Origin: Flexistipes sp.
Lineage (GTDB): Bacteria; Chrysiogenota; Deferribacteres; Deferribacterales; Flexistipitaceae
DNA: 64,000 nucleotides
Direction of reading: 5' to 3'
Assembly: GCF_036172515.1 (NCBI RefSeq)
Contig: NZ_JAXKVW010000004.1
Coordinates: 1-64,000, forward strand
The stretch's first letter is position 1. Each line of letters begins with the position of its first letter. The notes under the pieces were generated by a model, which saw only the letters and a program-made list of their open reading frames with translations, was not told the origin of the DNA and searched no databases. This document shows positions 4,040-62,189 of this stretch, piece after piece. A program made the position numbers and the translations under genes.

Positions 4040-4806
4040 GCGGTCTTTTTTATCCTTCTGACAAAAATAAAATAATATCTTTTATTGAGTCAAATAAAGG
4101 CAGCGAAACGGCTCAGGAAGCAAAAATGATTATTGTACCTCATGCCGGTTATGTTTTTTCCGGTGCTACAGTTGTTAAAACAATTTCAAGGATTAAGCTG
4201 CCCAAAAATATAATTTTACTGGGACCGAACCATACAGGGGCGGGCGGCAGGATTGCCGTGTATCCCGGAGGTAAATGGAGCTGCCCGCTGGGTGATGTCC
4301 CCGTGAATGAAAATATGGTGGAAAAGCTCATGGACAAAGGTTTTGAGTCAGACCGGTTAGCCCATGTGAAGGAGCATTCCCTGGAAGTTCAGCTTCCTAT
4401 CTTAAAATATTTCAGGGACGACTTGAATATTGTCCCTATTGCTTTTAAAGGCTTAGGCTTTGAAGACTGCAGAAATGCGGGGAAAGTTTTGAAAGATTTG
4501 GTTAGTGAGACTGATTCAATGATAGTTGTAAGTTCGGATTTCAACCATTTCGAAGATCTTGAAACAACGAATGAGAAAGATTTTGATGCCATCAACCGCA
4601 TCCTTGATTTGGACAGCAAGGGGCTTTATGACACTGTTTTGAGCAAAAACATATCGATGTGCGGTATTATCCCCACCGTTGTTGCTTTGGAGTCACTTGA
4701 TAACAAAGAAAATCTGAAGGCTTCACTTGTGGAGCATACAACAAGTGCGGAGACGAGCGGTGATGCGTCGCAAGTTGTGGGTTATGCAGGGATAATTATA
4801 AGTTAG
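4018..4806 (+). CDS. Memo-family protein (AmmeMemoRadiSam system protein B)
   Basis: A 262-residue Memo-like protein, related to class III extradiol dioxygenases. Visible hallmarks are the early PHAGYVFSG stretch, LLGPNHTG, a histidine in EHSLEVQLPIL, and SSDFNHF. The start is supported by GGGAGG six bases upstream. In many bacteria Memo proteins are encoded with an AMMECR1 protein and a radical SAM protein; neither is adjacent here, although a radical SAM protein of another family is encoded at 24356. The biochemical role of the bacterial family is unsettled. Confidence 0.87.
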   Translation: MYRDTVVSGLFYPSDKNKIISFIESNKGSETAQEAKMIIVPHAGYVFSGATVVKTISRIKLPKNIILLGPNHTGAGGRIAVYPGGKWSCPLGDVPVNENMVEKLMDKGFESDRLAHVKEHSLEVQLPILKYFRDDLNIVPIAFKGLGFEDCRNAGKVLKDLVSETDSMIVVSSDFNHFEDLETTNEKDFDAINRILDLDSKGLYDTVLSKNISMCGIIPTVVALESLDNKENLKASLVEHTTSAETSGDASQVVGYAGIIIS

Positions 4807-4821
4807 ATGTATTTAGAGGTA

Positions 4822-4918
4822 GTTGAGGTTGTTGAGGTATTTATCCTGCCATATAAACTTGATTACGTGGCAGGAAACGTTGAACCCCGTTAAATTCGGC
4901 TTCGCCTGGCTGCCTTTG
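4822..4918 (-). repeat. Dispersed repeat, family C, copy 2 (inverted)
   Basis: Near-identical reverse complement of 339-434, with only scattered single-base differences. It occupies most of the gap between the Memo gene and galU. The TCCTGCCA/TGGCAGGA hairpin lies just after the stop of the Memo gene and could act as a weak terminator or a transcript end-stabiliser. Confidence 0.7.
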
Positions 4919-5890: not shown

Positions 5891-6278
5891 TCCTGCAAAC
5901 AAAATTGTTTTGGTGCACGGAATTATCAGCGATAAAATAGGTAAATTAATCGACTATTCCGAAAAGATGAAGCGGAGCATCAGTGAAACCAGCATTCCCC
6001 TTATGGATATTATTGATACGGGAGAGAATCTCGAAATTTTTGCTGAACTTCCCGGAGTTAAGCTTGATGATTTTAATGTTTTACTGTATGAAGAATATCT
6101 TATTATCGAAGGGAGTAAAATTGCTGACAAACCTGACTGCAAGGTAACATTTTTCAGGATGGAGAGAACATTTACCCCTTTCAGAAGAATAGTCAGACTT
6201 CCCCATGAAGTGGATGAGAATGATATTTCTGCAAAACTGAAAGACGGCGTACTGATAATAAAAATAAAAAGGAAATGA
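5874..6278 (+). CDS. Hsp20/alpha-crystallin family small heat-shock protein
   Basis: 134 residues with an alpha-crystallin domain from about residue 43 to the end: ETSIPLMDIIDTGENLEIFA, ELPGVKLDDF and the closing LKDGVLIIKIKRK. These chaperones bind unfolding proteins and hold them for ATP-dependent refolding. The N-terminal arm is unusually charged and there is no I-x-I tail after the domain, which may affect oligomer size. It overlaps galU by 17 bases and is followed within a few bases by lon, giving a small protein-quality pair. Confidence 0.88.
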   Translation: MMEDFDPANKIVLVHGIISDKIGKLIDYSEKMKRSISETSIPLMDIIDTGENLEIFAELPGVKLDDFNVLLYEEYLIIEGSKIADKPDCKVTFFRMERTFTPFRRIVRLPHEVDENDISAKLKDGVLIIKIKRK

Positions 6279-6282
6279 TAAA

Positions 6283-8637
6283 TTGAAATCAGGGAGGGAA
6301 AAAGAAGTGGAAAATGTTAATGAAAATTTAGAAATTCCTGAGATACTTCCGTTACTGCCTGTCAGAGACATGGTGGTATTTCCATATATGGTTCTTCCTC
6401 TTTATGTCGGCAGAGATGCCAGTATTGCAGCAGTGGATGAAGCATTGAGCGGAGAGAGAATGATATTTCTTTCTTCTCAGAAAAACGCTGAAATTGAAGA
6501 GCCTGATGTTCAGGATATCTACAAAATAGGAACCGCTGCACTTATTTTGCGTATGCTGAAACTGCCTGACGGCAGAGTGAAAATACTTGTTCAGGGGCTA
6601 AAACGTGCAGAAATTGACAGTTATGCTCAGGAAGATCCTTTTTACAAGGTGAAACTCAATCTGATAGAGGAGAGTGAGCCGGAAGAAGGGTTAAAATCTG
6701 AAGCTCTTGTACGTCATGTGAAGGAACAGTTGTCCAAAGCCGTTAATCTTGGAAAACCGCTTTTGCCTGACCTGTTGGCTGTGATTGAAACAATCAATGA
6801 GCCGGGCAAATTGGCCGATATTATAGCGGCTAATCTTGGTTTGAAAGCTGAGGAATCTCAGGTGATTCTGGAAGAGATTGAAGCTGAAAAAAGGCTGGAG
6901 AAGGTTAATGAATTTTTAAACAGAGAAATTTCAATTCTCGAAGTCCAGCAGCAGATAATGAATGATGCCAAGGGTGAAATCGATAAAAGTCAGAGGGAAT
7001 ATTTTCTGAAAGAACAGATGAGGGCAATCAAGAAAGAACTCGGTGAAGAGGATGATATCAGTAAAGAGGTTGAAGAGCTTCAGGAAAAAATCAGAAAGGC
7101 TAAAATGCCCAAAAAAGTCAGGGAAGAAGCTGAAAAGCAGCTGGGCAGGTTTTCCCGAATGCATCCTGATTCCGCCGAAGCAACAGTTGTCCGGAGTTAT
7201 CTGGAGTGGCTGGTGGAACTCCCCTGGTCTAAATCCAGTAAGGATAATCTCAACATAAAGCATGCCAAAAAAATCCTGGATGAAGATCACTACGGGCTTG
7301 ATGAGGTAAAAGACAGAATACTTGATTTCCTTGCCGTCCGTAAACTTAATAAAAAAATGAAAAGCCCCATTCTATGTTTTGTTGGCCCTCCGGGAGTCGG
7401 TAAAACATCCCTGGGGAAGTCAATTGCCAGAGCTATGAACAGGGAGTTTTTTAGAATGTCACTCGGCGGAACCCGTGATGAAGCTGAAATAAGAGGGCAC
7501 AGAAGGACATACATAGGCGCTCTGCCCGGTAAAATAATCCAGGGGATAAAAAATACAGACAAAAACAATCCGGTTTTTATGCTTGATGAAATTGATAAGC
7601 TGGGTATGGATTTCAGAGGCGATCCTTCCTCCGCTCTGCTGGAAGTGCTTGATCCGGAACAGAACAGTTCTTTTGTGGATCACTATCTTGGAGTGCCTTT
7701 TGATTTGTCCCGTGTATTTTTTATTACCACAGCCAATTATCTTGATCCCATACCGCCTGCATTAAAGGATAGGATGGAGGTTATCAGGATACCGGGTTAT
7801 ACGGAGGATGAAAAAATAAAGATAGCCGAAAACTATCTTATTCCCAGACAAATAAAAGAAAACGGACTGGGTGAAAAGAAAGTTCAGTTTAGCAGGAAAG
7901 CAATATTTGAAATTATAGACGGCTACACCAGAGAGTCAGGTCTCAGGAATCTGGAAAGGACCATAGGAAAAATCTGCAGAAAGATTGCCAGAAAGGTTGC
8001 CGAAGGTGACGGAAAAGAAACATTCAGAATTACTCCTAAGACTGTTGAAAAATTTTTGGGTCCCAGAAAATTTGAGGATGAGGAAGAACTTAAAACAAAT
8101 GAAGTTGGTATAGTCACAGGTCTTGCATGGACGCCGTATGGCGGAGAGGTTTTATTTGTTGAGTGCAATAAGTACAAAGGCAAAGGGAATATGGTTGTTA
8201 CCGGTCAGCTGGGAGATATTATGAAAGAATCGGCAAAAGCCGCTTTTACAGCCGTTAAGTCTCTTGCTGAAAAATATGAAATTGATGAAAAAATGTTTTC
8301 CGATTATGATATACACATCCACGTACCTGCCGGAGCAATTCCGAAGGACGGTCCTTCCGCAGGAATAACAATGGCTACAGCAATTTTTTCCATATTTACA
8401 GGTAAAAAGGTGCGTAAAGATGTGGCAATGACCGGTGAAATCACCATTTCGGGCAAAGTGCTGCCTATAGGCGGACTGAAGGAGAAACTTCTTGCTGCAA
8501 AAAGAATAGGTGTGGCTAAGGTTATTATCCCGAAAAAGAATAAAAAGGACCTTGTGAACGTGCCGGCAAATGTTAAAAACAGCCTGGAAATAGTTGCTGT
8601 GGAAAAATTTGATGAAGTTCTGCAACATACTTTTTAA
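6283..8637 (+). CDS. lon: ATP-dependent protease Lon
   Basis: Full-length LonA: N-terminal substrate-binding domain (about 20-215), coiled-coil linker, AAA+ module with Walker A GPPGVGKT at residues 368-375 and Walker B FMLDEIDKLG, then the Ser-Lys protease domain with the nucleophile in KDGPSAG (S692) and the catalytic lysine in GGLKEK (about K735). Lon degrades damaged and regulatory proteins. The start is uncertain: TTG at 6283, or GTG at 6307, which is in frame and better placed behind AGGGAGG (6291-6297). It lies directly after hsp20, so heat-shock co-expression is likely. Confidence 0.95.
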   Translation: MKSGREKEVENVNENLEIPEILPLLPVRDMVVFPYMVLPLYVGRDASIAAVDEALSGERMIFLSSQKNAEIEEPDVQDIYKIGTAALILRMLKLPDGRVKILVQGLKRAEIDSYAQEDPFYKVKLNLIEESEPEEGLKSEALVRHVKEQLSKAVNLGKPLLPDLLAVIETINEPGKLADIIAANLGLKAEESQVILEEIEAEKRLEKVNEFLNREISILEVQQQIMNDAKGEIDKSQREYFLKEQMRAIKKELGEEDDISKEVEELQEKIRKAKMPKKVREEAEKQLGRFSRMHPDSAEATVVRSYLEWLVELPWSKSSKDNLNIKHAKKILDEDHYGLDEVKDRILDFLAVRKLNKKMKSPILCFVGPPGVGKTSLGKSIARAMNREFFRMSLGGTRDEAEIRGHRRTYIGALPGKIIQGIKNTDKNNPVFMLDEIDKLGMDFRGDPSSALLEVLDPEQNSSFVDHYLGVPFDLSRVFFITTANYLDPIPPALKDRMEVIRIPGYTEDEKIKIAENYLIPRQIKENGLGEKKVQFSRKAIFEIIDGYTRESGLRNLERTIGKICRKIARKVAEGDGKETFRITPKTVEKFLGPRKFEDEEELKTNEVGIVTGLAWTPYGGEVLFVECNKYKGKGNMVVTGQLGDIMKESAKAAFTAVKSLAEKYEIDEKMFSDYDIHIHVPAGAIPKDGPSAGITMATAIFSIFTGKKVRKDVAMTGEITISGKVLPIGGLKEKLLAAKRIGVAKVIIPKKNKKDLVNVPANVKNSLEIVAVEKFDEVLQHTF

Positions 8638-25252: not shown

Positions 25253-25523
25253 CCTTAATATTTAAGTACTTGTTTGGAAATGTAACTTTTTTAGTGAAAT
25301 AGAGAAGTAGCGGGATGGAAAAATGATGAAATAGTATTTAGGTCCCATCCCAACAAACTTTATCTACCTCTAATACCAGGCGCACAAATCTTCAATCTAA
25401 TACAATCTTTAGTATCATAATTTTTATAGTGTCTTTCGTAAAATAACCAAGGTAAAATTTTGTGTGCGCGGCTGGCACCTCAAATACTTTTAATTACCTC
25501 AACTACCTCTAAATACCTCCAAC

Positions 25524-35149: not shown

Positions 35150-36298
35150 ATGAAGAATGTCCGAATGTTTTTACGATTGATTATACACGCTATCAGAGAA
35201 AGAAAATCGAGGACTTTAATAATTTTCTTCGCCATTTCAGTAGGTATCGGAATAATATCGGCATTGTCCAGTGTTTATTATGACATAAACACCAAAATGG
35301 CAAAAGAACTGAGGGCTTACGGCGCCAACATATCTGTTAAAGCGGCAGAGGGGGACAAATTCAGTATTGGAAAAATTGACAATATCAAAAAAATTCTCGG
35401 AGAAGAGTCTGTCGTCGGTGTCAGACCGGATCTGTACGGCGTAGCAGATGTACAATCCAACAACTCCGTTCTTAAAAGTAAAATGCCCGTTGTTGTGGTG
35501 GGGACATGGTTTGATCAAATAGATGAAGTAAACCCTTACTGGAAGATCACAGGCTCTATACCTGTTGAAAAAGGCGCAGGTGAGGCTGTTTTGGGAGAAA
35601 CTGTGGCTGAGAAGCTGAATTACGGAATCGGGGATAAAATAAAATTAACTTCCGGCAAACTGTCAAAGAAGTTTATCGTTGGTGCTGTGATAAAAACAGG
35701 AGGGGACCCGGATAACAGGATATTCCTGGATATTGAAGATGCCTGGAAAATTTTCGAAAACAAAGGTTATGTTAATACGGCAAGACTGAGTGTTATTACT
35801 GCCGATAAGAATCCTGAGTCTCTCATAGCTTCTGTTAATAAAAATGTTTCGGGAATTGAAGCCGGTTCCATTAAACGGATAGCCAGCTCTGAAGGAAAAA
35901 TTCTGAGCAAAATAAAATCTGTTATGTATCTTGTTGTACTTGTCATACTTGCATCCACTGTACTGTGTGTTTCCACAACTATGATGACTATTATTGCAGA
36001 GAGAAAGAAGGAAATAGCGCTTAAAAAAGCACTTGGGGCATCTAATATGATCGTTATCAGCGAATTTTTGACAGAAGCTTTTGTTTTAGGGCTCACCGGT
36101 GGTATAGCCGGATATATATTTGGATATCTCTGTGCCCAGGTAATCGGTCAGAGTGTTTTTGACTCCTATATATCATTCAGGATAGTGGTTGTTTTTGCGA
36201 CCGTTATGTTATCGGCAATTGTGGCAGGCGCGTCTGCAATGTTTCCGCTTAAAAGGGTTATAAACGTTGATCCGTCAGTCGTTTTGAAAGGAGAATAA
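35150..36298 (+). CDS. FtsX/MacB-type ABC permease, second of a pair
   Basis: 382 residues with the same plan as its neighbour: N-terminal helix, periplasmic domain (about 45-260) and three C-terminal helices, with MTIIAERKKEIALKKALGAS as the FtsX signature. The first and second permeases share features such as ELRAYGANI/ELKSYGSNI near residue 50, so they look like an ancient duplication forming a heterodimer. GGAG lies upstream and the gap to the previous gene is 11 bases. Confidence 0.9.
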   Translation: MKNVRMFLRLIIHAIRERKSRTLIIFFAISVGIGIISALSSVYYDINTKMAKELRAYGANISVKAAEGDKFSIGKIDNIKKILGEESVVGVRPDLYGVADVQSNNSVLKSKMPVVVVGTWFDQIDEVNPYWKITGSIPVEKGAGEAVLGETVAEKLNYGIGDKIKLTSGKLSKKFIVGAVIKTGGDPDNRIFLDIEDAWKIFENKGYVNTARLSVITADKNPESLIASVNKNVSGIEAGSIKRIASSEGKILSKIKSVMYLVVLVILASTVLCVSTTMMTIIAERKKEIALKKALGASNMIVISEFLTEAFVLGLTGGIAGYIFGYLCAQVIGQSVFDSYISFRIVVVFATVMLSAIVAGASAMFPLKRVINVDPSVVLKGE

Positions 36299-41451: not shown

Positions 41452-41617
41452 CATTTTTTTGAAAGAAAAATGTGGTAAAACAAAATATATAAAATTTAGT
41501 ATTTGGTTTATCACTGAATTATGTGGCAGGCTATGGCAAATGTAAAAAAGATATGCAGAACTATACAAAATTTTATTATTGCGGCAAAAATCAACAGTAC
41601 GCGAAGGGGATTTATTA

Positions 41618-42628
41618 ATGTCTTACAGGCGTCTTGAAATTACAAAATGTGGCGGGCCGGAGGTACTCAGGATAGTTGAAGAAACATCATTGCCTGAACC
41701 GGCAAAAGATGAAGTCAGAGTAAAAGTATTGGCCACTGGGGCTGCATTTACAGACATTATGATTCGCGAAGGAATGTACCCTGAAATCAAACAAAAACCA
41801 CCCTTTACGATAGGCTATGATATGGTTGGTGTCGTGGATAAAATTGGCGAAGGGGTTGAAAAATTCAAGTCAGGCCAAAGGGTTGCCGATTTGATGGTCA
41901 TCGGTGCATGTTCCGAATATGTATGTGTGTCGGCTGATCGATTGACATTGGTTCCTGATGAATTGGATGCAGGCGAGGCTGTAAGCCTTGTTTTGTCATA
42001 CGTTACAGCTTATCAAATGCTGAACAGAATCGCTGAGGTAAAATCCGGTCAGAGAGTACTGATTCACGGAGCCGGCGGTGCAGTTGGTACAGCCATGATT
42101 CAACTGAGCGTGTTGAAGGATTTGGAAATTTATGGGACTGCTTCAAAATCAAAACATGAACTTGTTTCTAGTTTAGGGGCGGTGCCGATTGATTACCAAA
42201 ATGAGGACTATTCAGATAGGTTGCGAAGTCTTGCAAACAAAGGGATAGATGCTGTATTTGATCCCATTGGCGGCGACAACCTGAAGCGATCATTTAGTGT
42301 GTTGGGGCACAGTGGAAAACTTGTCAGCTATGGTTTCTATGATTCAGTACTGGGTAAAGGTGGGAATATACCGCTGGATTTTTTGCGGCTTAAGTTATGG
42401 AATATATTTCCCAATCATCGTTCCACATCATTCTATTCTATCGGGGCTACACGAAAGAATCATCCTGATTGGTTCTCTGAAGATTTGACCACGTTGTTTG
42501 GTTTGCTTAAAGATGGACGAATTAGTCCGGTCATCGGGTTAAGGGTGCCTATGAATAAAGCAACAGAAGCGTATGAGCTTATTGAAAAGGCGAATGTGAA
42601 TGGAAAAGTAATAATTGAAGTTGCTTAA
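41618..42628 (+). CDS. Zinc-independent medium-chain oxidoreductase (quinone-reductase type)
   Basis: 336 residues of the MDR superfamily. GroES-like N-terminal part with GAAFTDIMIREGMYPE and PFTIGYDMVGVVDKIG, Rossmann motif IHGAGGAVGTAMIQLS, and VFDPIGGDNLKRSF, resembling NADPH:quinone reductases or VAT-1-like proteins. Structural-zinc cysteines are absent. The start at 41618 has GAAGGGG upstream; an earlier in-frame TTG (41579) does not. It stands alone at the border of the accessory segment. The substrate is unknown. Confidence 0.82.
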   Translation: MSYRRLEITKCGGPEVLRIVEETSLPEPAKDEVRVKVLATGAAFTDIMIREGMYPEIKQKPPFTIGYDMVGVVDKIGEGVEKFKSGQRVADLMVIGACSEYVCVSADRLTLVPDELDAGEAVSLVLSYVTAYQMLNRIAEVKSGQRVLIHGAGGAVGTAMIQLSVLKDLEIYGTASKSKHELVSSLGAVPIDYQNEDYSDRLRSLANKGIDAVFDPIGGDNLKRSFSVLGHSGKLVSYGFYDSVLGKGGNIPLDFLRLKLWNIFPNHRSTSFYSIGATRKNHPDWFSEDLTTLFGLLKDGRISPVIGLRVPMNKATEAYELIEKANVNGKVIIEVA

Positions 42629-42783
42629 TCAGCCGCCCAACAAATCGTTCCATTGCCGCTTTAAAACTTGATCGTTAAAAAAACCGATATCAATTATAAT
42701 GTGTTCCACTAGCATCGGTCAATGACCGATTGGCAGCTATGTAAATAGCTAAATTTGACGAAGTCAATCAATTTGTGTATACA

Positions 42784-42814
42784 ATATATTTACCAGTCCT
42801 TTGGCTGGTGCTAG
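42784..42814 (+). repeat. Hairpin repeat, family B, copy 2
   Basis: ATATATTTACCAGTCC-TTTGGCTGGTGCTAG: an imperfect stem with the same flanks as 4921-4950 and 62392-62423. The 42629-42840 gap holds this and a small palindrome CGGTCAATGACCG, and no gene. Confidence 0.6.
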
Positions 42815-42840
42815 TGGCAAGGCAGCTCGGTCATTCCAGT

Positions 42841-43020
42841 CATCAGATGATATTCAAGACATACGGCAGGATAATCAAATAGATTAACGGTGAGAAGAAC
42901 GAACTGGACAAATTTATATACGCATAGAAACCAAATTATCACAATTTTATCACAGTGGGTTTTTGGAAAAAATTAAGTTATTGGTAATACAGAAGAAAAG
43001 GAACGGAGAGGGAGGGATTC
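42841..43020 (-). repeat. Direct repeat with tRNA-Ser 3' end (left attachment-like site)
   Basis: 180 bp that match 45784-45962 at roughly 85-90% identity by eye and in the same orientation. The last 16 bases, GGAGAGGGAGGGATTC, are the complement of the 3' end of tRNA-Ser (acceptor strand and T-arm up to the T-loop); identity to the tRNA stops there. A partial tRNA end breaking in the T-loop is the usual mark of integrase-mediated insertion. Confidence 0.75.
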
Positions 43021-43064
43021 TTTCCCTCTCGCTTTATGAAAGGGTCTTCATATCTACGGAATAT

Positions 43065-43205
43065 CTAAAGAGCCACAAACACCAAGCCGCCAAGAAAAAG
43101 CCAAGGCTCATAGTTCCCGTTTGGATCATTTGCCCATTTGTAACCAAAATATGCACAAAGGATTAGTACCAGTATCTCAATTATACCAATCACAATTTTG
43201 ATCAA
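43065..43205 (-). CDS. 46-residue membrane protein, cassette-like
   Basis: Starts at TTG 43205, eight bases after AAAGGAA, and ends at TAG 43065. One membrane helix (MIKIVIGIIEILVLILCAYF) is followed by GYKWANDPNGNYEPWLFLGG and a second hydrophobic stretch. I have seen the W-x-x-xP-x-GNYEP pattern in short mobile-gene-associated proteins but cannot name a function. The start lies 20 bases after the GTTATGT core site that ends the neighbouring attC, where the next gene of an integron cassette array would begin. No attC of its own is visible downstream; the segment ends at the tRNA-like repeat. Confidence 0.6.
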   Translation of the reverse strand: MIKIVIGIIEILVLILCAYFGYKWANDPNGNYEPWLFLGGLVFVAL

Positions 43206-43224
43206 TGGTTCGATTCCTTTTTAC

Positions 43225-43322
43225 ACATAACGCGAAAGTAACCGGCGCCGGAGCGAAGTGAAGCGAAGGGTACCGTAAAAGCGGCACGCTTTTACGGCGT
43301 CCGGTTGACTGAATGGTTATGT
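43225..43322 (-). other. Integron attC recombination site
   Basis: In the direction of the 43317 gene it starts ACATAAC (R'', holding the gene's TAA stop) and ends GTTATGT (R'), perfect 7-base inverse complements. Inside, GTCAACCGGACGCCG faces CGGCGCCGGTTAC. These pair fully except for two unpaired bases, which on the recombined (here plus) strand are a T and a G in the arm next to the gene stop. Two such extrahelical bases are the diagnostic feature of folded attC sites. The centre contains a further 10-bp hairpin CCGTAAAAGC/GCTTTTACGG. The length, 98 bp, is within the attC range. No integron integrase gene is in the window. Confidence 0.8.
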
Positions 43323-43691
43323 TTTTTGCCGGGACTGTAGGTCTGCCAAGACATTATCAATGGCCTCGATTAACGGTTTCTTGACCTGCTCCGGCTCCTT
43401 TTCTGCCCACTCTTTTCTCAGCAAATTCAGAGCTTGCCGTGTGGTTGATGCATATTCGTTGTATTTACCCAGCTCGTTAATGTACGCGATTTGACTCACC
43501 AGCTTTAAAGGGCCCGCTTCGTCGGTTCCTCGGCTCACTGACTTTAGGAGAGCATGATAGATATCAAACCGCTCTTTTTCCTGCTCTCGCTCACGTATCC
43601 CCAGATATCGTTTAGCGGAAAATGCTATCGATACCAGCGAGACAACTAACGCTATTACTGTTGCAATGGCAGCAAGATCCTGAAGTTCCAT
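43317..43691 (-). CDS. Integron-cassette gene: small membrane-anchored protein of unknown function
   Basis: 124 residues. One N-terminal membrane helix (about residues 7-27, AAIATVIALVVSLVSIAFSA), then a charged helical cytoplasmic part. No family recognised. The gene is G+C-richer than its neighbours, its stop lies in the attC R'' box, and its start is 15 bases after another GTTATGT core (43712-43706). It therefore has the exact layout of a mobile gene cassette. Its cargo function is unknown; such one-helix proteins occur among phage-defence or stress cassettes, but nothing here proves that. Confidence 0.75.
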   Translation of the reverse strand: MELQDLAAIATVIALVVSLVSIAFSAKRYLGIREREQEKERFDIYHALLKSVSRGTDEAGPLKLVSQIAYINELGKYNEYASTTRQALNLLRKEWAEKEPEQVKKPLIEAIDNVLADLQSRQKT

Positions 43692-43705
43692 TCAATACCT
43701 TCTAA

Positions 43706-43712
43706 ACATAAC
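43706..43712 (-). other. Cassette boundary core site GTTATGT
   Basis: Same 7-mer as the end of the attC at 43225, placed just before the cassette gene. No attC-like stem is visible on its far side (43713-43894), so the cassette may have been inserted at a secondary site rather than in an array. Confidence 0.6.
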
Positions 43713-43948
43713 AAGTTATTATACAGTTCTGTATATCCTTCATTTTTTTATGATAGCTTGGCAATTCACTCATATCAAGTAAAACTTCTCAGCTGTATAA
43801 CACGGCAATCTTAAAATTATGCTGAAAGTTCTTCCGGCACTTCTCAAAAAATATGATAGTATGTTTTGAAGAAACTATGCATTTATAGATTCATTTGACC
43901 GATATTTTAAAAAATGGTAAATTTGTTAATGGGCGATTGGTTATCAAT

Positions 43949-44392
43949 ATGATTTCAAAAAAAGATTTATCAGAACAGGATATACGGACAAAATATATTA
44001 CTCCCGCCATTAATAAAGCCGGGTGGGATAAAATGACCCAGTTAAGTGAGGATGTTTACTTAACCGAAGGTAAAATATTTGTCCGTGGCAATATGTTTGC
44101 CAGAGGCAAACGAAAAAGGGCTGATTATGTTCTTTATTACAAGCCAAACATCCCCGTTGCAATAATCGAAGCCAAAGATAATAATCATACAGTCAGACAT
44201 GGCATTCAGCAGGCACTGGGTTACCGGGAATTTTTGCCGGATGTGCCTTGTGTTTACAGTTCAAACGGTGATGCATTCTTTGAACATGATTTAACATCGT
44301 CCAACGGTGTATTAGAAAGAGAAATACCGCTTGATGAGTTTCCCTCTCCCGAAGAACTTTGGAAAAAATGGGGACAGGTAAATAATACTTAA
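43949..44392 (+). pseudogene. Type I restriction HsdR, N-terminal nuclease domain only
   Basis: 147 residues from ATG 43949. The opening KKDLSEQDIRTKYITPAI and NKAGWD, the nuclease core with D59 (RADYVLYY) and E74-A-K76 (IIEAKD), and the closing FPSPEELWKKW match the N-terminal domain of HsdR. Complete HsdR has 750 or more residues with helicase motors after this point; here a stop occurs within a short tandem repeat (AATAATACTT twice, 44385-44404). hsdM and hsdS are absent. It is most likely a remnant, though the PD-(D/E)xK residues are intact, so a small stand-alone nuclease is conceivable. Confidence 0.75.
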
Positions 44393-44498
44393 TAATACTT
44401 GACATGGTAGTATTAAGTGCTAAGATTTAAGTATTAAGAGGGGAGGGATAAGTTTTTATAGTTATTGAGAGGAGAAAAGCAAAAACTGAGGGGTTGAA

Positions 44499-45383
44499 AT
44501 GGCAAGGACTAAGCGATTTAAAATTAACGGCGATGTTGGATATTATCATGTGATTTCCCGGACAGTGGGCGGAGAGTTTTTGTTGGGTGATGTTGAAAAA
44601 GAAAAGCTTCTTTCTGTTATAAAGCAGTTCAACTCATTGTATTTTGTAAACATTATCGGTTATTGTATTATGGACAACCACTTTCACCTTCTTGTAAAAA
44701 CTTTATCAGTGGAAGATATCGATAATGTAGAACTTAAAGAGCGATTATCCCGCCACAATAAAAATATACCGGATGAAATCACGGAATCTGAAATAATAAA
44801 ATATAAAGAAAAGCTGACTGACATATCTGAGTATGTAAAATCAATAAAAATGACGTTTTCCAGATGGTACAACAAAAAGAACAACCGAAAGGGTTATTTC
44901 TGGGGAGACAGATTTAAGAGTGTACTGGTGGAAAGCGGAGAAAGTCTTTTGAACATGCTTGCCTACATTGATTTAAACCCTGTGCGTGCAAATATCTGCA
45001 GTAAACCTGAAGAATACAGATGGTGCAGTTTCTCAGACAGATTGGCAAAGTCAAACGATGATTTCCTGAGTTTTGAAGGCACTGAGATTGATAGAATTGA
45101 AGACTATATATCGTTTATATACGGTGTGGGCAAAGTTGAGAGGAAAAGTTATAAAGGTGCAGAAAAAGGGAAAATCTCGGAAGATTCCCGACCGGAAATA
45201 AGTTTATGGCAGCACAGGATCAGATATTTTTCCGATACACTTGTTATTGGTTCAAAGGGTTTCATAGAATATGCATACAAAACATTTGAGGATAAAATAA
45301 CGAAAAAGGAACGGAGAGCGCACAAAATTCCCATTGATCTGCCGCACAATTTATATTCCATCCGGCGGCTGAATAGTATTTGA
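44499..45383 (+). CDS. REP-associated tyrosine transposase (RAYT, HUH family)
   Basis: 294 residues. HUH motif H61-F-H63 in MDNHFHLLV, catalytic Tyr Y156 in LAYIDLNPVRA, and the early YYHVISRTVGGEFLL and later GYFWGDRFKSVL segments typify the Y1/IS200-like proteins called RAYTs. These single-strand nucleases are linked to REP/BIME palindromes in other bacteria. Directly downstream are two strong hairpins (45427-45475 and 45511-45538), and small palindromic elements are scattered over the window. GAGGGG lies six bases before the ATG. No IS200 end sequences were recognised. Confidence 0.87.
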   Translation: MARTKRFKINGDVGYYHVISRTVGGEFLLGDVEKEKLLSVIKQFNSLYFVNIIGYCIMDNHFHLLVKTLSVEDIDNVELKERLSRHNKNIPDEITESEIIKYKEKLTDISEYVKSIKMTFSRWYNKKNNRKGYFWGDRFKSVLVESGESLLNMLAYIDLNPVRANICSKPEEYRWCSFSDRLAKSNDDFLSFEGTEIDRIEDYISFIYGVGKVERKSYKGAEKGKISEDSRPEISLWQHRIRYFSDTLVIGSKGFIEYAYKTFEDKITKKERRAHKIPIDLPHNLYSIRRLNSI

Positions 45384-45426
45384 GTTGTTTTATGTTTGAT
45401 TGGCAGGAGATCCCTCGGCTTTGCTT

Positions 45427-45475
45427 GCCCTGTTGAATAATAGCTTTGCTATTTGCCTTCGGCATTCAACAGGGC
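45427..45475. repeat. Large hairpin downstream of the RAYT gene
   Basis: GCCCTGTTGAAT pairs with ATTCAACAGGGC (12 bp). The loop region carries AATAGCTTTGCTATT and GCCTTCGGC, two further small hairpins. A multi-armed foldback like this next to a RAYT gene is a possible recognition structure. Confidence 0.65.
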
Positions 45476-45510
45476 GAGGGATGACATTTCGCGATAGGGC
45501 GCTACATTGT

Positions 45511-45538
45511 GTCACCTCTCCGCTTCGGTCGAGGTGAC
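45511..45538. repeat. REP-like hairpin, copy 1
   Basis: GTCACCTC-TCCGCTTCGGTC-GAGGTGAC: 8-bp stem with a 12-base loop. The same sequence apart from its first two to three bases recurs at 50438-50462. Confidence 0.7.
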
Positions 45539-45719: not shown

Positions 45720-45783
45720 TTGTCGCTGTTTGATGATCAGTTCACTCTGCCCCGGTTGAGATGAATATTGCAAAAAACACAGC

Positions 45784-45962
45784 CATCAGATGATATTCAA
45801 GACATACGGCAGGATAATCAAACAAATTAACGGTGAGAAGAACGAACTGGATAAATTTATATACGCATAAAAACCGTTTAGAACAATTTTAGCACAATGG
45901 ATTTTGCCGAAAAATTAAGTTGTTGGTAATACAGAAGAAAAAAAACGGAGAGGGAGGGATTC
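45784..45962 (-). repeat. Direct repeat with tRNA-Ser 3' end (right, tRNA-proximal copy)
   Basis: 179 bp matching 42841-43020. Here the last 17 bases belong to the intact tRNA-Ser gene. The shared 162 bp beyond the tRNA suggest tandem integration of related elements rather than a simple att duplication. Confidence 0.75.
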
Positions 45963-46033
45963 GAACCCTCGGTACGCGTTAACGTACACACGATTTCCAA
46001 TCGTGCTCCTTCGGCCAACTCGGACACCTCTCC
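45946..46033 (-). tRNA. tRNA-Ser(GGA)
   Basis: 88-base class II tRNA. Acceptor stem GGAGAGG/CCTCTCC, D arm, anticodon stem CACGA/TCGTG with loop TTGGAAA (anticodon GGA), a long variable arm (GTGTACGTTAACGCGTAC region) as expected for serine, T arm GAGGG-TTCGAAT-CCCTC, discriminator G. CCA is not encoded. Its 3' end serves as the attachment-like site for the accessory segment to its left. Confidence 0.95.
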
Positions 46034-61921: not shown

Positions 61922-62189
61922 TTACCTCTTCTTTAAATATCTGGCTGGGTCTGAAAACGACGACCGTTCTTGGTTCAATAACGGTTTCCACACCGGTTTT
62001 GGGGTTCCTGCCGATCCTTCTGCCTCTCACTTTGACGTCAAAATTTCCGAATCCTGAAATTTTAACGTTGTTTTTGTTAAGAATTTCATCTTTCATAATT
62101 TCAAAAACACTGTCCACAACATCAGATATGTCTTTTTTTGTAATACCTAAAGATTCGTAAATGTTTTCAACTATATCCGCTTTTGTCAT
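61914..62189 (-). CDS. ihfA: Integration host factor alpha / HU-family DNA-bending protein
   Basis: 91 residues from ATG 62189, which has AGGGGGT upstream; longer starts are not supported. The IHF/HU fold is clear: MTKADIVENIYESLGITKKD, VKISGFGNFDVKVR and the DNA-inserting arm GRNPKTGVE. The arm and the ARG-rich loop fit IHF-alpha better than HU. Such proteins bend DNA and are needed by sigma-54 promoters and site-specific recombinases, both of which leave traces in this window. Confidence 0.9.
   Translation of the reverse strand: MTKADIVENIYESLGITKKDISDVVDSVFEIMKDEILNKNNVKISGFGNFDVKVRGRRIGRNPKTGVETVIEPRTVVVFRPSQIFKEEVNA

Follow-up and report, generated by a model that had tools for sequence, protein, structure and literature searches.

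The 64,000-nucleotide stretch of DNA analyzed here (the window), from a genome whose genus is taken as Flexistipes, holds a gene at 43317-43691 (minus strand) that an earlier note had described as a solo integron gene cassette, lying between two GTTATGT words with no integrase beside it. This locus raises two questions: whether the site next to the gene is a true attC recombination site, and how a cassette came to stand in this genome on its own.

The site at 43225-43322 (minus strand) is a genuine attC. It opens with the R'' box ACATAAC (43322-43316), which contains the stop codon of the cargo gene (TAA, 43317-43319), and it ends with the R' box GTTATGT (43225-43231). The plus strand, corresponding to the attC bottom strand, folds into 7 bp of R, a 5-nt spacer, 3 bp, a bulged G, 6 bp, a bulged T, and 5 bp, with a folding energy of −22.6 kcal/mol (z = −3.4), against −20.8 for the other strand. 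The recombined strand thus carries the two extrahelical bases, and R'' the stop codon, as first described. A structural scan for R''/R' complementarity, spacers, and bulged L arms found this site as its single match in the 64 kb, and 40 shuffled windows yielded no site with R at 7/7 and an L score of at least 9. We also constructed a covariance model (R1) from 34 aligned attCs, taken from behind intact intI genes of Gammaproteobacteria and of two genomes from the window's phylum, with the window site kept out of the training set. The window attC scored 55.2 bits (E value = 5e-12), on par with attCs adjoining intact intI genes, and the window contained no second match at an E value of ≤10. Model R1 found a total of about 110 sites in the searched loci, nearly all of them in intI-bearing genomes, and it had no match in 41 of the 51 genomes of the phylum, which indicates that it is specific. 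The covariance-model check that had been proposed for 43225-43322 therefore favored a cassette, as did the conserved boundary at GTTATGT. Rfam has no attC family and gave no matches at 43225-43322, and an exact IUPAC attC pattern, which is too strict, matched nowhere in seven genomes.

From crossover to crossover, the cassette extends over 43231-43711 (minus strand), as read from the sequence with the boundary set by the leader homology described below. The gene lies between two GTTATGT words on the minus strand, one at 43706-43712 and the other closing the attC at 43225-43231, and it is followed directly by the attC, with G|TT at either end, as in a cassette. The G+C content is 0.48 for the cassette, 0.47 for the gene, and 0.54 for the attC, versus 0.385 for the window. 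The cargo protein (124 amino acids) has one N-terminal hydrophobic helix, and its function is unassigned, as the note had it: searches of Pfam, NCBIfam, and PADLOC gave no family match, comparison with PHROGs gave only weak matches on the helix, either holin-like or unknown, and the predicted structure, with a pLDDT of 59, was of too low quality for a structural search. Its only close relative, at 66% identity, is encoded at 4467-4835 of locus L009, in a Cellvibrionaceae metagenome-assembled genome. That gene is preceded by an attC (4379-4450, R1 score of 42.5 bits) ending in GTTATGT and followed by a second attC-like site starting with ACATAAC, the latter recognized by eye only; through it, the unit is found in different arrays and genomes. 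The two genes differ at 48, 16, and 81 first, second, and third codon positions, respectively (dN = 0.30, dS saturated), indicating that the cargo protein is under purifying selection. The relationship suggests a flow of cassettes between Gammaproteobacteria-like and Flexistipes-like hosts.

The DNA upstream of the cassette (43713-43874, about 160 bp) recurs before cassettes at five further loci in the genus. Within it we delimited an attI-like leader at 43708-43818 (minus strand; core ATAACTTGTTAT at 43708-43719), which resembles the DNA that precedes an intact intI in another genome of the same phylum (G002). Further copies lie at 25390 and 27999 on contig C16 of the window's own genome (G000), at 442886 and 1897664 in G015, which is taken as F. 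sinusarabici, and at 4360 on contig C63 of G016, where a weaker copy lies at 61979. The leader copies agree up to ...ATAATAACTTGTT (one copy reads ACAACATATTGTT), and homology stops at GTT in six copies, which in the window is the junction G|TTATGT (43706-43712, minus strand). Past that point the six sequences diverge: GTTATGTTTAG, GTTATGCCCAA, GTTGTACCGG, GTTATACGCC, GTTAGGCCGT, and GTTAGGATTT. Agreement up to GTT followed by divergence is how an attI would look after G|TT crossover with different cassettes, and the leader has what marks an attI: a place beside intI (here a stub only), conservation up to the crossover G, and varying cassettes behind. A Pc-like promoter, TTGATA-17-TATCAT (43750-43778, minus strand), reads into the cassette, and the other leaders have related hexamers with a spacing of 17 to 18. 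The palindrome TATACAGAACTGTATA (43720-43735, minus strand) is conserved in most leader copies and is possibly an operator or an integrase-binding site.

Divergently from the cassette, at 43819-43869 (plus strand), lie the 16 codons MLKVLPALLKKYDSMF*. This stub is 80% identical over 15 codons to a longer remnant at 27920-28045 of contig C16 (C16b), and the same protein start stands on the divergent strand of four leaders (MLKVLPALLKKYDSMF* in the window, MLKVPPALLKKYDRLLVNSDVPPLEYGSYKKWLRYYLDSCKN in C16b, and LKAPAALLKKYDRQLVNSDAHS and MLKIPSALLKKYDRLLVNKNS in the 443k and 1898k leaders of F. sinusarabici). Remnant C16b aligns Met to Met with the intact 432-amino-acid IntI of G002 (C4:191629-192930), which scores over the family cut-off, with 31% identity over 45 amino acids and 32.3 bits, compared with at most 21.6 bits in 300 shuffles. 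We thus read the 16-codon stub as intI, an identity that depends on C16b and on a single intact relative, with 31% identity. N-terminally extended IntIs of Gammaproteobacteria were also tried as matches to the stub and were rejected (best score of 22.7 bits, with shuffles reaching 23.1), so that the G002 IntI alone matched clearly. In G002, an attC lies 2.3 kb from intI, and the intI start is preceded, at a distance of 126 bp, by TTATACAGAAACTTCATAATAAGTTGTTAGG, a 30-bp motif that matches the leader end; among 20,000 random 153-bp stretches, its score was reached only by this place in G002 and by the window leader itself. The window therefore shares with this complete integron its layout, the 30-bp motif ending at GTT, and, through C16b, the N-terminal IntI extension, but it retains only 16 codons where G002 has an intI over the family cut-off. 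The stubs at separate loci break at different codons, so each locus seems to have lost intI independently.

No IntI over the family cut-off was found in any of the three genomes of the genus (G000, G015, and G016). Genome G000 is 99.8% complete, and its Xer-like matches, all under the cut-off, skip positions 193-237 of TIGR02249, the IntI-specific part; a complete integron, with a functional intI, is thus not what this genome carries. Contig C16 has four further R1 attC matches, three of them strong (E value below 0.01). It thereby qualifies as a cluster of attC sites lacking integron-integrase (CALIN; at least two attCs without intI), and the window, with one strong attC, does not. The description of the cassette as solo accordingly holds for the single strong attC in the window and for the lack of an intI over the cut-off; it does not hold for the surroundings, which include a conserved leader, a promoter, and an intI stub, nor for the genus, in which the leader also precedes other cassettes in the same genome and in two others. 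The genome search that had been recommended turned up no intI over the cut-off and did turn up the four further attC matches on C16.

One orthologous attI lies between matching flanks in G015 (443k) and G016 (C63:4360) but carries different cassettes in the two, showing that cassettes changed within the genus, where the integron platform probably worked; the flanking gene is absent from G000. The analysis turned up no empty attI. The chromosome of F. sinusarabici MAS10T (2,526,590 bp) is its sole replicon (PMC3236037). In synteny with that species, the whole of 41683-45513 is absent and the dehydrogenase gene at its edge is truncated, which probably reflects a deletion there; the insertion event is therefore invisible by synteny.

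The locus is very probably the remnant of a chromosomal integron, one of several in the genus, in the order decayed intI, Pc, attI, cassette, and attC. Seen directly are the attC, the cassette boundaries, the conserved leader, the intI remnant, and the lack in the genome of an intI over the cut-off. An IntI with an N-terminal extension, of the G002 type, would have integrated a circular cassette by attI × attC recombination, with the folded attC bottom strand as substrate and a crossover at 43712/43711, between G and TT. The cargo gene would then be expressed from Pc in the leader, and the later loss of intI down to about 16 codons would have left the cassette fixed. The attC still appears undamaged, as does the attI core, and an IntI in trans could in principle recombine them. 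This past action of IntI, the function of the promoter, and the possible action of a homologous IntI are what we infer from sequence. It is unlikely that the genus still uses its stranded attI platforms, with a recombinase in trans, either an IntI supplied by mobile elements or by other strains or else a tyrosine recombinase that is not IntI, swapping cassettes at several attI copies in each genome; if it did, the system would be a dispersed integron that lacks an integrase of its own.

Off-target insertion of a lone cassette by an IntI from elsewhere, at a secondary (attG-type GTT) site and without an attI, would accord with a genome without an intI over the cut-off and a window with one strong attC, and such insertion is one proposed origin of integrase-less cassettes (PMC8618304). 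An off-target site would, however, have no such leader as a neighbor, whereas here the 160 bp upstream are common to five other cassette loci, come with a promoter and intI stubs, and resemble the DNA beside an intact intI; the leader largely refutes this origin, and we hold it to be quite improbable. It is slightly less probable still that the leader is not attI and represents a promoter element, mobile or repeated in the genus, with cassettes behind it by happenstance. There are several copies per genome, and near 1155.6 kb in G015 a partial leader without the attI core precedes a gene without a recognized attC, so a portion of the leader may function as an ordinary promoter. All full copies, however, end their homology at the crossover GTT, their divergent strand keeps the intI start, and the stubs break at different points, which speaks against one mobile unit copied as such. 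A chance palindrome with two GTTATGT words is already refuted, since the covariance model, the shuffled windows, and the cargo relative in another attC array weigh against it, whereas GTTATGT is only mildly enriched in the window (12 observed versus 7.2 ± 2.5 expected). The word alone is uninformative, and it is the whole site that is special. Three GTTATGT words at 35766-36209 were rejected as candidate sites; they lie inside a coding sequence, by our own reading an apparent permease-type gene.

The integron remnant at this locus is of a kind already known, and intI loss as an origin of integrase-less cassettes is a published proposal (PMC8618304). It shares with IntI-dependent cassettes the R and L box architecture, the bottom-strand bulges, the stop codon in R'', the G|TT ends, and the score range, and it differs in having no integrase in the genome and in a host genus outside the phyla listed as integron bearing, among which Chrysiogenetota are included and Deferribacterota are not (PMC8618304). 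CALINs, proposed to be degraded integrons (PMC9024848, PMC8618304), likewise have attC without intI, and intI loss is one proposed origin for them; their default threshold is two attCs, compared with one well-formed site here, and they are normally recorded without attI, Pc, or an intI stub, all three of which are recognizable at this locus. With an attG secondary-site insertion, it shares a single cassette outside a complete integron, but the receiving site here is instead a conserved attI-like leader. New are the host genus, whose phylum is absent from that list (later lists may differ), and a recognizable attI family of which a genome has several stranded copies; attI sites other than those of class 1 have been poorly described (PMC9024848). 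The locus offers a sequence-level case of one proposed route, in which intI is lost and attI, Pc, and cassettes are kept, and it adds a genus of thermophilic anaerobes to the bacteria with integron remnants. Counts of attI-like leaders could reveal dead integrons that are called only CALIN, or are overlooked, in searches for attC and intI.

Possible further traces of the integron lie near the cassette. Directly past the window attC, a frame of 46 codons starting with TTG (43065-43205, minus strand), recognized by reading frame and spacing only, is stopped by TAG and cut at 43028 by a repeat of the 3' end of a tRNA-Ser gene; it had no relatives in plasmids and is probably a second, broken cassette. 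The repeat is a 192-bp direct repeat (42837-43028 versus 45780-45970, 88% identity) whose sequence takes in the final 25 nt of the tRNA-Ser(GGA) gene (45946-46033), and it looks like an attachment-site duplication on either side of a small island in which the integron remnant lies. Beyond the repeat, the zinc-type dehydrogenase gene (41579-42628, plus strand) stands between a decayed second leader (41514-41574, plus strand; leader HMM score of 14.5 bits, E value = 8e-4 in the window) and, past its stop, a decayed attC (42635-42680, plus strand; 12.4 bits with filters off, E value = 0.04 for 2.5 kb), an arrangement suggestive of an older fossil cassette.

Directly behind the intI stub lies an orphan HSDR_N-type open reading frame (43895-44392) comprising the N terminus only of a type I restriction R subunit, followed by a Y1/REP-associated tyrosine transposase gene (44499-45383) beside a hairpin element (45408-45475) that recurs at L090 14810-14889 (84%). 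Just past the last cassette of three arrays (L092:10042-10149, L090:13372-13477, and L094 at about 6210-6310) lies the motif GGTGCCATAxATTAxCxGTAGTTTCTACTT, possibly a conserved array end. Cassettes at the F. sinusarabici 443k locus include defense-type genes (L092:5853-6701 and 7500-8525), with an Argonaute-associated nuclease (Aga_Nuclease, E value = 2e-78) and a metallo-beta-lactamase-fold protein like the candidate defense family PDC-M48B. The first 1898k cassette (L091:10002-10739) encodes an arsenite methyltransferase relative that, at 223 bits, falls short of the NF008823 cut-off (263). In G013, a recombinase tried as an integron-integrase was rejected, passing the XerA model NF040815 and failing the IntI model TIGR02249; this XerA-type tyrosine recombinase (L018:5718-6554, minus strand) lies cassette-like between an attC (6582-6668) and a weaker one (4577-4642) and could be mistaken for IntI. 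In G012, an SMR-type multidrug efflux gene is an attC cassette (L096:4253-4597, minus strand), and both of its attC sites are present with the same scores in G014.
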